Shown: piece by piece, positions 7,307-15,694 of the stretch
Position numbering within the stretch: position 1 is the first letter of the stretch
How the letters are laid out: every line of letters begins with the position of its first letter
Assembly (NCBI GenBank): GCA_024641705.1
Contig: JAHECO010000025.1
Span: 1-53,004, forward strand
Source: Candidatus Kryptoniota bacterium
GTDB taxonomy: Bacteria > Bacteroidota > Ignavibacteria > Kryptoniales > JAKASW01
Length of the DNA stretch: 53,004 nt
Direction of reading: 5' to 3'
Program-made: the position numbers and the translations under genes
Notes under the pieces: model-generated
What the model saw: only the letters and a program-made list of their open reading frames with translations
What the model was told of the DNA's origin: nothing
Databases searched by the model: none

Positions 7307-8809
7307 CTACTTGATAACCAGCATCTTCTTCGTCAAAACGAGACTCCCGCATTCTAAACGGTAGAAATAGACACCGCTGACAAGTCTTGACGCGTCAAAC
7401 GTGACCCGGTAACGGCCGGGCGATTTGTATCCGTTGACAAGTGTCTCCACGCGGCGCCCGAGAACGTCGTAGACTGCGAGCATCACTTTGTCCCCTTTCG
7501 CGATGTCGAAGGCTATCGTAGTCGAGGGGTTAAAAGGGTTGGGGTAGTTCTGAAGTAGGTTGAAGGAGACAGGGATATTCTTTGCATCGGCGACCGCCTC
7601 CACGGCTGAACCGTTCTCCGCCTGCAGCATGTGGTAAAGATATACAATGCCGAGGTTCGCGTACCAGATGTCGCCGCGGCCGGAAATATGGCTGAGGTGT
7701 TGCGCGAGATAAGACTTGCTCCGGTCGTCGTATATGACCTGCGGGTGCCACATCAGGTGATACACGCCCCCTTTTGCCACTATAGTGTCGAATAAGTCGT
7801 TCAATGAAGTGAGGCTCGTATCTCCTCCTCCCCAGGACGGTGCACCGAGCTCCACGGTCGGGAAAAAGGCGCTGAAGTGGTTACGCGACTCGTCCCATGC
7901 CGCCAGCGTCGAATCGCCGTAGACATACGCCCGCGGGTTGGTGGTGTCAAGGTTCGCGTACAGCCGCGCCGCAAGGTAGCCTGAAGTGCCCAGTAAAGAA
8001 TCGACTGTCGTATCATAGTCACCGTAAGGCGCGATCCATGTGTATACGTATTCTTTTCTGCCTGCACTGAACGGGGGTGGGATTTCGAGAGTGCTCAAAA
8101 TGTCGCTCTTCGAACCCGCGATCTCACTTGTCGGATTCAGGTAAGGAACGTACGGGTGAGTCCGGCTGTGACTGGCAACTTCCACTTTCCCCGCATCGAC
8201 CTCGGCTTGAAGTGCACGCCACGTTTGATCGGAGCAGTCGCCGGTTATGACCCCGATGGTTGTGTACAAACCGTATGATCTGAAGAGATTCACGAGCGTC
8301 GGGAACCGGCCGTCGGCGACAACCCAATCCGACCAGTCATCCGCCGTAACCGTTACCACGGCCCGGCGGTTGTCGTAATACCTGCTGACCCCCTGGAAAT
8401 TCGGGACCATCGTGGTCCCAAGTTGATTTGTAATGTTGAGAAACAGAGTGTCGCTGTTCGGGGAGAACAATGCGGAAATATAAGCCGCGTTATCGGCGTA
8501 GTCGAAACGGGCAACCTGAATGCCGTTGAAAAATTCCGTATCAGTCCTCGTCGGGATCGGGATCCAGCTGTCCGCAGTCAAATATCTCTCGCAGCAGCTC
8601 AGCTCACCGGAACCGACCGGTATGCCGATCTTGTAGGTCATCGGGTAAGCGAAGCCATATGCTTCATGGACCGCGTGCGGAATCACTATCGCAAGCCCGC
8701 TGTTGCTGTCGAAGTGAAGCCGCAGCCTTGCTTCCTGTTGCGACAGTGCGACGGTTGAGGAAACGAGGATGAAAAGCGCGGCGGACAGGGACGAGACCTT
8801 TGACATCAT
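7307..8809 (-). CDS. polysaccharide deacetylase (NodB-like) with type IX sorting domain
   Basis: Signal peptide at residues 1-24, then a beta-rich N-terminal part and a NodB-homology domain. The metal-binding pair appears as TADDWSDW (Asp157/Asp158) and HSRTH (His214 and His218), which fits carbohydrate esterase family 4. Such enzymes remove acetyl groups from chitin, xylan or peptidoglycan; the exact substrate is not readable here. Residues from about 415 to the end form a type IX secretion C-terminal domain: NLLQNYPNPFNPSTTI, YDVLGRRVETLV, SGVYFYRL and a final KKMLVIK. It is therefore probably exported across the outer membrane and attached or released. At 500 aa, the catalytic domain is somewhat divergent. 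It lies next to the GH5 gene, another type IX cargo. Confidence 0.87.
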   Translation of the reverse strand: MMSKVSSLSAALFILVSSTVALSQQEARLRLHFDSNSGLAIVIPHAVHEAYGFAYPMTYKIGIPVGSGELSCCERYLTADSWIPIPTRTDTEFFNGIQVARFDYADNAAYISALFSPNSDTLFLNITNQLGTTMVPNFQGVSRYYDNRRAVVTVTADDWSDWVVADGRFPTLVNLFRSYGLYTTIGVITGDCSDQTWRALQAEVDAGKVEVASHSRTHPYVPYLNPTSEIAGSKSDILSTLEIPPPFSAGRKEYVYTWIAPYGDYDTTVDSLLGTSGYLAARLYANLDTTNPRAYVYGDSTLAAWDESRNHFSAFFPTVELGAPSWGGGDTSLTSLNDLFDTIVAKGGVYHLMWHPQVIYDDRSKSYLAQHLSHISGRGDIWYANLGIVYLYHMLQAENGSAVEAVADAKNIPVSFNLLQNYPNPFNPSTTIAFDIAKGDKVMLAVYDVLGRRVETLVNGYKSPGRYRVTFDASRLVSGVYFYRLECGSLVLTKKMLVIK

Positions 8810-9043: not shown

Positions 9044-9417
9044 CTACTTCATAAGTACCATCTTCCTCGTAATAACCTGGCCGCCCGCCACGAGTCTGTC
9101 GAAGTACACTCCGCTCGCCAGGTGCAATCCGTCAAACCTGACCACGTAACTTCCAGGCCTCTTGACTTCATCGACAAGAGTTGCGACCTCTCTTCCAAGC
9201 ACATCGTACACTTTGAGGGTAACATGGCCGACAGCCGAAAGCTGATAGCCGATCGCCGTCGTAGGGTTGAACGGGTTGGGATAGTTATCGGAAAGTCCAA
9301 ACCGTACCGGGGCATCGACCGGTTTGACTGAAGTTAGATTGGCCTGCAGCATGACCGGGTATGACTGAACTTCCGTGGAATCTTTCATTATGATTTTCAG
9401 ACGGTAATAATACTGGT
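9044..9417 (-). pseudogene. out-of-frame type IX sorting domain of the GH5 glucanase
   Basis: This frame encodes a complete type IX secretion C-terminal domain (SDNYPNPFNPTTAIGYQL, YDVLGREVATLVDEV, ASGVYFDRL, TRKMVLMK) but has no start of its own. The nucleotides just upstream read QYYYRLKIIMKDSTE in this frame, the usual end of the fibronectin-like module that links a catalytic domain to the sorting domain. Adding one A in the GGAACC near 9418 would join it to the GH5 frame and give ITPGNQYYYRLK. So the two are one gene split by a single-base deletion or a sequencing error. Confidence 0.85.
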
Positions 9418-10599
9418 TCCCGGGGTTATCGAGCTGTCGACGAACTCCGAATCGGTCGGCGCAACTTCCGTGTAATCGACAAACTTGCCGCTGAAGATTC
9501 TTCGCTGCACGACTATGCTGTCGCTCCCGGCGTTCCTGTTATGCCATTGAAGAACGATGGATGCGCCGACCTGGCTTATCTTCATGCCGTTCTGGGATTC
9601 AGGATATGTATGTATGAGGATATCCTTGATCTCGTTGAATGTGCCGCGGGTCCTGTCGTATATGCGGAAATGGCCGCCGTCGTCCCAGGCGAACGCGCCC
9701 ACTCCATGCTGCAATGCTTGATCCACAACGGTCGCGTAGGCGCACATGCGTGAGTTGTACGCGCACGAGTCTATGTATCCAAACTCATCGAGTATGACGG
9801 GTATATTATTCGCCTGCGACCATGCTGTGACCTGATCGAACTTCGCTTTTGTCGCGGCTATGTCGGACGCGCTGCCGTATGTTCCGGGGCCTTGAAGGCC
9901 GAACGGCCACGGATCGTATGAATGATAATAACCGATTAGATACTTGTCGGAAGAGTCGGGGATGGCGGCGGTAACGAGCTCGCCGGAGTTCGACCACCTG
10001 TACCCGGAGAACGAGACTATGCGTGTCGGATTTGTCCGGCGAATTATTTTCAGCACTTCGGCATTGAGTGTGTCCGTATTCGCCTCGGACATCGGGTACG
10101 GCTCGTTCAGCATTTCAAATATCAGGCTGTCCGACCTGTCACTGAAATGCGCCGCTATTTGACTCCATATGCTGTCGAACCGCGCCGTGCATGAATCGGC
10201 GTGAGCGATATCGGTAGAGGTATCCGTAAGCGCGTTCTTGAGCCAGCTTTCATGGTGCGCATCGAGAACGACAAACAGCCCGCGCTGGAGCGCCCAGTCT
10301 ACGACCTGTTCCACGCGGCTCATGAATGGAGCGTCGATCGTGTACGGGGGCGTTAACGACGTATGTCCACCCCACGTAACGGGAATTCTGACAGCGGTGA
10401 AGCCGGCGTTCTTGTAATCGTCGAAGTAGCGCTCCTGTATGAGAGGATTCCCCCACGCCGTTTCAGTCGGTGCGTCCAATGAATTGCCGAGATTGATCCC
10501 CCTTTCCATCCCCTTTACCGCGTCCTGAGGCGTCAGTTGGGCTTTCGCGCCTGCCACAAACCCCAGCAGCAATGCCGCTATCAGCAAAGAACTCTTCAT
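9397..10599 (-). CDS. endo-beta-glucanase, GH5 (frame-shifted at the 3' end)
   Basis: Secreted family-5 glycoside hydrolase, expected to cleave beta-1,4-glucan or mannan chains. Signal peptide 1-20 ends AGAKA. The (beta/alpha)8 barrel shows RGINLGNSLD, AVRIPVTW (around residue 72), DAHHE at 113-117, acid/base Glu166 in EMLNEPYP, YYHSYDPWPF, nucleophile Glu272 in VILDEFG and AWDDGG. Residues 330-395 look like a fibronectin-type linker. The reading frame then ends at ITPGTSIITV because of a one-base slip at about 9418; the continuation with the sorting domain is in another frame at 9044-9417. As it stands the enzyme would be exported to the periplasm but not recognised by the type IX machinery. 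Confidence 0.9.
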   Translation of the reverse strand: MKSSLLIAALLLGFVAGAKAQLTPQDAVKGMERGINLGNSLDAPTETAWGNPLIQERYFDDYKNAGFTAVRIPVTWGGHTSLTPPYTIDAPFMSRVEQVVDWALQRGLFVVLDAHHESWLKNALTDTSTDIAHADSCTARFDSIWSQIAAHFSDRSDSLIFEMLNEPYPMSEANTDTLNAEVLKIIRRTNPTRIVSFSGYRWSNSGELVTAAIPDSSDKYLIGYYHSYDPWPFGLQGPGTYGSASDIAATKAKFDQVTAWSQANNIPVILDEFGYIDSCAYNSRMCAYATVVDQALQHGVGAFAWDDGGHFRIYDRTRGTFNEIKDILIHTYPESQNGMKISQVGASIVLQWHNRNAGSDSIVVQRRIFSGKFVDYTEVAPTDSEFVDSSITPGTSIITV

Positions 10600-10681: not shown

Positions 10682-10737
10682 GGTTCGGGGTTCGGGGTTC
10701 GTGGTCCGTGGTCCGTGGTCCGTGGTCCGTGGTCCTT
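10682..10737. repeat. eight-unit heptad tandem repeat
   Basis: Eight contiguous 7-base units drift from GGTTCGG to GGTCCGT, the last four full units being identical. It starts 24 bases beyond the stop codon of the sigma-factor gene (10761) and is the cleanest heptad array in the window. Confidence 0.85.
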
Positions 10738-10760
10738 GAAGCTCCGTCCCAGCCCTATGA

Positions 10761-11570
10761 TCAGTGTTCCATCTTCTTCCACGAGCTCAAGCGCGACTCC
10801 AGGATCGCGAGTAAAGCCGCCAGCCCTCCGATAGACAGCACCAGATATGTCGCCAGATGATTCCCCGCTACTATCTCCTTCAGTTCACTTGCCTGAAAGA
10901 GCATCGTGTTCAGCAGACTTATCGACCGGTTAGCAAGCTCGAATGCACTCATGCCGGTGAGCCGCAGGCCGAGCCAGATGAGCGCGTCGATGGCAATGAA
11001 TACCAGGAGGTTCACGAGAAAATTGTTCACTATGCGCCGTCTCCAACTCTCGCGAACGATCCTCTTCATGGTTGCCGCGCTGAATTCTGGGTCGGTCAAT
11101 TCCACGTAACTCTTCTTGAGAATGTCTCTCGTCAGCTTGTCGTCGTTCAGGTAATACAGGGTCAGGAGAAGCCTGTCCTCCATACTCAACTCATCCAACG
11201 CTTCATTTATCAACGCCTTCTGTTCCGACAGATCGAGATTGCGGTATGTCGATTCGACATTCTGAACGAGGAGATCGCCGGCGTCATTTTCGTCCAGGCT
11301 GCTCGATTGGGGCGCAGTGCTCCTCACTCTCGTCAGCGAGGTATTGACGACGATCCTGTAGAACCATGTTGAAAACTTCGAGCCTCCTCTGAACTTGCCG
11401 AGCGATCTGAACGCCTTCAGGAACGCGTCCTGTACTATCTCTTCCGCGTCCTCCCTGTTATTCACAATCCGATAAGCGATGGAGAACGCCATGCCCTTGT
11501 ATTTATCTATGAAATAGGAATACTTCGATACGTCTCCTTCGAGAACAAGTCGCAGGTAGAGTTCGTCCAT
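10761..11570 (-). CDS. ECF sigma factor fused to a two-helix membrane protein, region 4.2 missing
   Basis: Residues 1-85 are a normal ECF sigma region 2: YKGMAFSIAYRIVNNREDAE, VQDAFLKAFRSLGKF and FSTWFYRIVVNTSLTRVR. Residues 112-142 are the start of region 4 (ALDELSMEDRLLLTLYYLND). At that point, where the DNA-reading helix-turn-helix of region 4.2 should follow, the sequence continues DKLTRDILKKSYVELTDPEF, which looks like the beginning of a separate small membrane protein. Two hydrophobic helices follow (about 182-204 and 239-261). So this is an in-frame fusion, most simply a deletion at a shared Asn-Asp codon pair, that removes the -35 recognition helix. It follows the membrane-protein gene upstream with a TAATG stop/start overlap. 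Whether it is functional is open. Confidence 0.8.
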   Translation of the reverse strand: MDELYLRLVLEGDVSKYSYFIDKYKGMAFSIAYRIVNNREDAEEIVQDAFLKAFRSLGKFRGGSKFSTWFYRIVVNTSLTRVRSTAPQSSSLDENDAGDLLVQNVESTYRNLDLSEQKALINEALDELSMEDRLLLTLYYLNDDKLTRDILKKSYVELTDPEFSAATMKRIVRESWRRRIVNNFLVNLLVFIAIDALIWLGLRLTGMSAFELANRSISLLNTMLFQASELKEIVAGNHLATYLVLSIGGLAALLAILESRLSSWKKMEH

Positions 11571-11941
11571 TACCCGGGGTTCTTAGTCTCCGTTTTTTTC
11601 CTGTAAACATAGTAGCCGACCAGTCCGAGTCCGGCGAATATGAACGACAATGTCGGAACCACGTATTCCGCTTTCATCGATGCATAGTCAAAGAGAATAT
11701 AGCCAAGGAACGCTCCGAGTCCAATTCCGAGGATAAGCGTCCCCCACATGAGGGCATTATGGTAGGGGGTTTCTTCCTTCATATAGATCGCCGGGTCCAT
11801 CCCTTTTTCAATCAAGGCCATTCTTTCCTTGTGTTTGGCCCTCCGTCCGAAATAGTAGATCAACACGATTGTCGCCGGCACCCCTCCGAAAAGAAGTGTG
11901 ACCACTACCAGTCCGGTTATGTGTCCGATCACTTCACCCAT
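11570..11941 (-). CDS. small membrane protein, DUF6249-like
   Basis: 123 aa with three predicted membrane segments: about residues 6-30 (ITGLVVVTLLFGGVPATIV), 64-84 and 91-112. The cytoplasmic loop KHKERMALIEKGMDPAIY after helix one is typical of the DUF6249 family often found beside ECF sigma genes in Bacteroidota. Its stop codon shares one base with the sigma-factor start (TAATG), so the two are translationally coupled. It may act in the same signalling unit, for example as part of an anti-sigma system; this is inferred from position only. Confidence 0.7.
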   Translation of the reverse strand: MGEVIGHITGLVVVTLLFGGVPATIVLIYYFGRRAKHKERMALIEKGMDPAIYMKEETPYHNALMWGTLILGIGLGAFLGYILFDYASMKAEYVVPTLSFIFAGLGLVGYYVYRKKTETKNPG

Positions 11942-12023
11942 TTCATTCTCCTGTCATATGTTTTGAGTTTTGGCGAGCCTTACGGCTCACAATATATGAC
12001 TACAGAAGGTCGGTGCAAGTAAC

Positions 12024-12270
12024 GGGTTGGGGGGTTTGGGGTTCGTGGTTCGGGGTCCGTCGTCAGTGGTCATTCGTAAATCCTAAATCGTCGATCGTAA
12101 CTCCACCATTTCATCATTCCACTATTCTCCCGCATCACGGGATTTCGTCCGTCCTCTTTATCCGACGGGCTCAACATCATTTCATTATTCCCTCATTCTG
12201 TTAATCCATCAACCCATTAATCCATCATTCCAGTCCTCCATTACTCCCCTACTCCCCATACCCCCTTTTC
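12024..12270. repeat. long degenerate heptad region
   Basis: Two blocks with a 7-base period. The first (12024 to about 12121) drifts from GGGTTGG-type through GGTTCGT-type to ATCCTAA-type units. The second (about 12175-12270) is of the TCCATCA or TTACTCC type. Between them is a short non-repetitive spacer. The region ends one base before the stop codon of the TonB receptor at 12272 and fills the 330-base gap. Confidence 0.65.
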
Positions 12271-14833: not shown

Positions 14834-15694
14834 CTATTCCTTTTCCGCATATACAATCCGCTCGAGTGGGGTTGAAGCAAGTTTTCTCCCCGAAGGTTTG
14901 AGGTATTCCCCGGCCAGCTCGTCGTATCCCCTATCCTCTATTATCTTCCATCCGTATCCTTTCAGGAAGCCCGGCACGTCAGTCGGTTCCATTGCGGAGA
15001 GCCAGATCCTGCCCAGGACATATCGCTTGTAGCCGCTCTCCCAGCCGTACATCGCCCGGCCGTCGAGAAAGTCCTTGCGGACATAAGTGAAGATAAGCCT
15101 GCTGCCGCCTTTAGCCCCGGCGAGGAAATCGAAAGTCGCTCTTACACCCTCTTCAGTGAGGTACTGCGTGACCGCCTCCATGATGAAGAATGTCCGTCTT
15201 TCCGAGGAATAGCCGTGAAAAGCGAGCACGGCGGCAGGGTCCTCGTGATCGAAGTCGACCGCCACGAGCTTAACATTAGCGGGAACGGTCCCCAACGCCT
15301 TCCGCAACCGGACCAGCTTGGCTTTTATGTTCTCCGGCTGATCGACTTCCCAGACGGGCATAAGAGAAGTGAGATGGAAGGCCCTGGTATCGAAACCGGC
15401 ACCGAGATTAACCACCGCTTCCATATCGTTACAGGCGGCGGCGAGTTTCTCATTGATGTACCGCTTCCTGCAGAGAAGCCCGCCCCAGATGCCCGGCTGA
15501 CTCTTCTCGCTGAGGCCGATGATCCAGTCTCTCATCCATCGCGGCCTCATCATGCGCACGAAGACCTTGGAGCTCAGCGGGAGCATTTCATACGCCAGCT
15601 CGTCTGTCACGACGCGCTCTTCAATTGGGAAATACTGCTCCACCGCGATGAGCGCCGTCGGACCTATCCCGGTTTTCGCAGCTGCCTTTGACAC
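14834..15694 (-). CDS. class I SAM-dependent methyltransferase, leucine carboxyl methyltransferase type (TIGR00027-like)
   Basis: 286 aa, cytosolic. The Ppm1/Tcmp/LCMT type is shown by YINEKLAAA, then motif I as VNLGAGFDTRAFHL, motif II as WEVDQPENIKAK, the acidic post-motif VAVDFDH, and FIMEAVTQYLTEEGVRA. These features place it among bacterial methyltransferases of unknown acceptor, sometimes tied to secondary metabolism or polyketide modification. A single gene with 200 bases on its 3' side and 459 on its 5' side, so context gives no clue. Confidence 0.88.
   Translation of the reverse strand: MSKAAAKTGIGPTALIAVEQYFPIEERVVTDELAYEMLPLSSKVFVRMMRPRWMRDWIIGLSEKSQPGIWGGLLCRKRYINEKLAAACNDMEAVVNLGAGFDTRAFHLTSLMPVWEVDQPENIKAKLVRLRKALGTVPANVKLVAVDFDHEDPAAVLAFHGYSSERRTFFIMEAVTQYLTEEGVRATFDFLAGAKGGSRLIFTYVRKDFLDGRAMYGWESGYKRYVLGRIWLSAMEPTDVPGFLKGYGWKIIEDRGYDELAGEYLKPSGRKLASTPLERIVYAEKE

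Follow-up and report, generated by a model that had tools for sequence, protein, structure and literature searches.

The window, that is, the whole stretch of 53,004 nucleotides analysed here, carries an open reading frame in which the front part of an ECF sigma factor continues directly into a two-helix membrane protein, two parts that are encoded by separate genes in every relative of the same genus that carries the locus. We consider it most probable (roughly 0.7) that a recent deletion, private to this genome, disabled a self-regulating module consisting of a sigma factor and its membrane partner. As such, the locus is most likely a recently broken switch rather than a new kind of regulator.

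In ECF sigma factors, region 2 binds the RNA polymerase core and the -10 element, while -35 recognition falls to region 4, which makes contact with the polymerase as well. The fused ORF (10761-11570, minus strand) is a single uninterrupted frame of 269 codons, of which residues 1-142 form the ECF sigma part and residues 143-269 the two-helix membrane protein part. In Pfam it matches Sigma70_r2 (PF04542, E 6e-18, residues 21-85), and it scores above the TIGR02937 cut-off; no match to Sigma70_r4 or Sigma70_r4_2 was obtained, whereas the orthologue at locus L076 matches both region 2 and Sigma70_r4_2 (residues 121-171, E 2e-11). What remains of region 4 is thus confined to residues 121-142 approximately, and the helix-turn-helix (HTH) and the C-terminus are lost, so that of the two domains of an ECF (group IV) sigma factor the protein has region 2 and lacks a region 4 with the HTH for -35 recognition. 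Past residue 142, alignment with the relatives shows the sequence of another gene. The features of the fused ORF are as follows.

11145..11570, minus strand: sigma half, residues 1-142, with ECF region 2, linker and the start of region 4 (Pfam; identity to orthologues; 0 of 61 invariant positions changed)
11316..11510, minus strand: sigma-70 region 2, residues 21-85 (Pfam PF04542)
11145..11210, minus strand: region 4 remnant, residues 121-142, cut before the HTH (Sigma70_r4_2 span in L076; alignments)
11144..11145, minus strand: deletion junction, Asn142-Asp143 (DNA alignment; 149-152 nt of all seven relatives missing)
10764..11144, minus strand: membrane half, residues 143-269, orthologue of the separate gene of about 130 aa that follows the sigma gene (alignment with relatives)
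11031..11144, minus strand: N-terminal segment before the first membrane helix, residues 143-180 (family alignment; AlphaFold helices)
10959..11021, minus strand: putative transmembrane helix 1, residues 184-204 (Kyte-Doolittle 19-residue mean up to 2.4)
10800..10856, minus strand: putative transmembrane helix 2, residues 239-257 (Kyte-Doolittle mean 2.28)

An earlier, sequence-only reading of this DNA had described a good sigma region 2 and the start of region 4 running into a membrane protein, which is borne out by Pfam and the alignments. The absence of the region 4.2 HTH and the two membrane helices that it saw further on agree with the missing Pfam match for region 4 and with the two hydrophobic stretches on the Kyte-Doolittle scale, and the join that it set at the Asn-Asp of residue 142 is placed by DNA alignment at 11144/11145. 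AlphaFold gave a mean pLDDT of 48 for the whole fused protein, which is not interpretable, and 69 for the membrane half alone, where only helices were predicted. An ORF on the opposite strand (10857-11372, plus strand) was dismissed as merely a shadow of the sigma gene.

A search for orthologues of the sigma half in 61 genomes found them in seven genomes of the same genus, with 67-76% identity across residues 1-146. Aligned by themselves, residues 1-142 are 69-78% identical to full-length sigma factors, and residues 143-269 are 40-57% identical to the product of the relatives' separate gene. In all seven, a DUF6249 membrane protein is followed by a complete ECF sigma factor of about 188 aa, and directly 3' of the latter, overlapping it by four bases, lies the gene for a two-helix membrane protein of about 130 aa; the same three-gene order recurs in more distant Bacteroidota. 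Separate sigma and DKLTRDIL-type membrane genes are just what the sequence-only reading had expected at the orthologous loci. The orthology of the locus is further backed by the DUF6249 gene and by a syntenic methyltransferase gene (14834-15694), and five other genomes of the genus contain neither the membrane gene nor a close sigma orthologue.

DNA alignment shows that the window is missing 152 nt relative to six of the relatives and 149 nt relative to the seventh, which, with the separate genes of the relatives, supports the idea of a deletion fusing two adjacent genes. The missing stretch contains the region 4.2 HTH, the C-terminal tail of the sigma factor and a few codons from the start of the membrane gene, its start codon among them. 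Its length is always 3n+2, which brings two frames offset by one base into register, and the chance of a gap length doing so is one in three. A microhomology-driven deletion would be possible, but the relatives share only TGAA and GA in register at the breakpoints, and we did not retain it.

How widespread, then, is this fusion? A profile of the membrane protein family was searched against two overlapping genome samples, 391 from the class and 395 from the phylum, and the strong matches elsewhere sit in open frames of 131-148 aa, the window genome alone having one of about 270-273 aa. Furthermore, no fusion was present at 25 loci inspected from named genomes, five of which are probably the same genus members again. 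Region 4 is intact at 23 of these 25 loci, the others being L083, with a stop codon before region 4, and L095, with a run of N. Relatives sharing the fused architecture, which the sequence-only reading had named as evidence against a fusing deletion, were thus absent among the genomes searched. In G000, the assembly of the window genome, neither a second copy of either half nor the lost region 4.2 segment was found elsewhere, the other matches to that segment being ECF paralogues (31-40%). As a separate observation, one in-frame TAA interrupts the sigma orthologue of another Bacteroidetes MAG (L083, 2776-3340) at codon 127, shortly ahead of most of region 4, whose remainder can be read beyond the stop; this is either a second sporadic lesion or a sequencing error.

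The sigma half bears no mark of decay: the seven orthologues share 61 invariant positions, none of which has changed here, and no stop has appeared. Under neutral drift, the probability of retaining both a stop-free frame and all invariant residues would be 0.48, 0.21 and 0.04 after 0.005, 0.01 and 0.02 substitutions per site, respectively. Given that synonymous sites are close to saturation in comparison with the relatives (divergence of about 1 to 2.6), the fusion, if dead, died in about the last two percent of that divergence. Judged as a pseudogene made by deletion, the locus has intact counterparts in relatives and has lost a needed part, and the missing sign of relaxed constraint after the lesion fits only a very recent event. 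From these comparisons, either the deletion would be very recent, or the fused protein would still be constrained.

None of 11 members of the family to which the joined membrane partner belongs has a Pfam match above the cut-off (DUF5056, at E 0.05 and 0.02 in two members, falls below it and was kept as a lead only), and a PDB sequence search with the family returned only designed helical repeats and no anti-sigma factor. The partner gene is a conserved, overlapping neighbour of the sigma gene, and therefore it probably encodes the anti-sigma or a membrane regulator of the sigma factor. The conserved residues are concentrated in the first membrane helix and the stretch preceding it, a pattern consistent with sigma binding; the putative anti-sigma role draws on this pattern, on the gene position and on the topology of the protein. 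Most of them, S, P, F, I and others, fall within residues 143-180, a segment that is presumably cytoplasmic and may bind the sigma factor; the AlphaFold helices of the membrane half span 2-17 and 19-63 (pLDDT about 56-82). No recognisable ASDI or zinc-binding anti-sigma domain of a class I anti-sigma is present, and only 6% of Bacteroidetes ECFs are associated with class I anti-sigmas (PMC7406223). CnrY, the class II anti-sigma of the ECF CnrH, binds its sigma factor through two short helices that grip region 2 and region 4 (PMC7406223). By analogy with this pairing of an ECF sigma and a two-helix binder, which may be a model of the ancestral arrangement here, a class II-like binding mode is a reasonable guess for the partner, although it has no sequence match to CnrY or to a solved anti-sigma, and region 4 is now missing. 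Outside the genus, two genomes of another family of the class encode membrane proteins (G180:C200:7524-7913 and G233:C83:63178-63564, profile E 1e-49 and 1e-44) that come close to the genus members in similarity to the profile, possibly because the module has moved horizontally.

Upstream of the fused ORF, the first gene of the module and a promoter-like site are still in place.

11570..11941, minus strand: DUF6249 membrane protein, upstream of the fused ORF and overlapping it by one base (Pfam PF19762, E 6e-18)
11995..12023, minus strand: promoter-like site GTTACT-N14-GTAGTCATA, upstream of the DUF6249 gene (comparison with relatives)

The DUF6249 gene occupies the same position in 7/7 genus relatives, and a similar protein is found at 13 more distant Bacteroidota loci. 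Of the 45 positions that all the others share, 8 are changed in the window copy; most relatives have fewer changes, L005 has a similar number, and the count is too low to interpret. The site GTTACC-N14-GTAGTCATA is exact in five genus relatives and has one mismatch in two, and no other match in any of these seven genomes is better than the operon copy; the window keeps this operon motif with one change in the presumed -35 (GTTACT). Similar sites lie upstream in L079, L083, L091 and L095, so that a promoter-like site GTTACC-N14(-17)-TAGTCATA marks the DUF6249-ECF-membrane protein operons of the window, of L002-L008 and of these four loci. Sites differing from the pattern at two positions were dismissed as noise, since a control with the reversed pattern gave similar numbers. 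The conserved site resembles an ECF promoter through which the module may activate itself. Downstream of the fusion, the window encodes a GH5 cellulase (9397-10599) and a polysaccharide deacetylase with a Por secretion tail (7307-8809), neither of which has a match in the sequence around the relatives' sigma gene. Between the fused ORF and the cellulase gene there are short tandem repeats of the GGTCCGT type (10690-10740), and the gap at 12020-12240 is repetitive too.

Several known systems bear a likeness to the fused protein. IutY (ECF243) and ECF48/52/53 are sigma factors with C-terminal membrane anti-sigma extensions, and IutY becomes an active sigma once its extension is removed by proteolysis (PMC8999054). 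There too, the C-terminus of a sigma factor is joined in one chain to a membrane-embedded regulatory part; however, that type of extension is described as added to a working sigma (PMC8999054), whereas in the window the membrane part stands in place of region 4.2, and the fusion, found in one genome only, most probably goes back to a deletion. The fused ORF thus has neither the complete sigma factor nor the lineage-wide conservation of an IutY/ECF52-type fusion, being unique among the genomes searched. RsoA is likewise a region-2 sigma protein without a region 4 of its own, and works with SigO, which supplies region 4 (PMC8103513). Unlike the fused ORF, RsoA is not joined to a membrane protein, and no SigO-like partner was seen here. 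Closest are the Bacteroidota modules of DUF6249 protein, ECF sigma and two-helix protein (L076-L091 and others), which are direct orthologues with the same gene order, but with separate genes and an intact region 4, except at the stop-codon and the run-of-N loci.

Could the fused protein nevertheless work? Region 2 might be held at the membrane as a decoy for core RNA polymerase, or proteolysis might free it to work at -10-driven promoters or in concert with a distinct region-4 protein. In favour of such a regulator are the open frame, the 61/61 invariant sigma residues together with the partner's intact conserved N-terminal motif, the retained presumed operon promoter, and the existence of both natural sigma/anti-sigma fusions (IutY, ECF48/52/53; PMC8999054) and the split SigO-RsoA (PMC8103513). 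Still, we regard it as very unlikely, since no relative searched conserves the fusion, no region-4-only partner was seen beside the ORF, and recency explains the absent decay equally well. The membrane-tethered decoy proposed by the sequence-only reading is possible but gains no positive support, the fusion not being conserved and a very recent deletion explaining the signal of constraint just as well; the published fusions, moreover, act by proteolytic release of an active sigma, not as decoys (PMC8999054). That selection itself has kept the fusion, with a membrane-held region 2 competing for core or being released by a signal, without -35 recognition, is more doubtful again.

It is unlikely, too, that the join is missing from the main population, whether as an assembly error or as a deletion variant of a strain mixture picked by the assembler. 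The G000 assembly is a draft in 95 contigs, and those of the named relatives were assembled from metagenomes; the lesion is unique, the sigma half looks freshly functional, and sporadic lesions occur at related loci (the stop before region 4 in L083, the run of N in L095). However, the few scattered bases that the breakpoints share in relatives (TGAA, GA) are too little for assembler collapse, the joined product is a clean in-frame fusion, and G000 has no intact alternative contig. Least probable of all is internal initiation on the fused mRNA, which would yield the membrane partner alone, its function surviving while the sigma factor is lost. The coding sequence of the membrane half is otherwise intact, the only loss being a few poorly conserved residues at its start, but the native ATG lies inside the deletion, and the first in-frame Met, residue 168, is past much of the conserved N-terminal segment.

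We therefore favour the disabling deletion. The ancestor would have been a self-regulated unit of the DUF6249 membrane protein, a complete ECF sigma factor and the two-helix membrane protein, the last probably holding the sigma factor at the membrane. The private deletion of about 150 bp would then have removed region 4.2, the sigma C-terminus and the start of the membrane gene, leaving the remainder in one frame by chance. The product, if made, would be a sigma region 2 irreversibly tethered to its cognate membrane partner; it would keep the core-binding and -10 part and be unable to read a -35 box. With region 4.2 lost and the partner in cis, no transcription start is expected at the module's own promoter, and the likeliest consequence is thus a loss of function, too recent for the sigma half to have decayed.

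The fusion locus exposes a Bacteroidota module, comprising the DUF6249 protein, an ECF sigma, a two-helix membrane protein and its own promoter-like site, of which we found no description in the literature searched. Were the reading by selection true, a sigma factor would have been turned into its own anti-sigma. Provided that the deletion is real, the locus captures a signalling module in the course of its loss (or rewiring), one event having fused a regulator to its target and left the promoter-like site in place.
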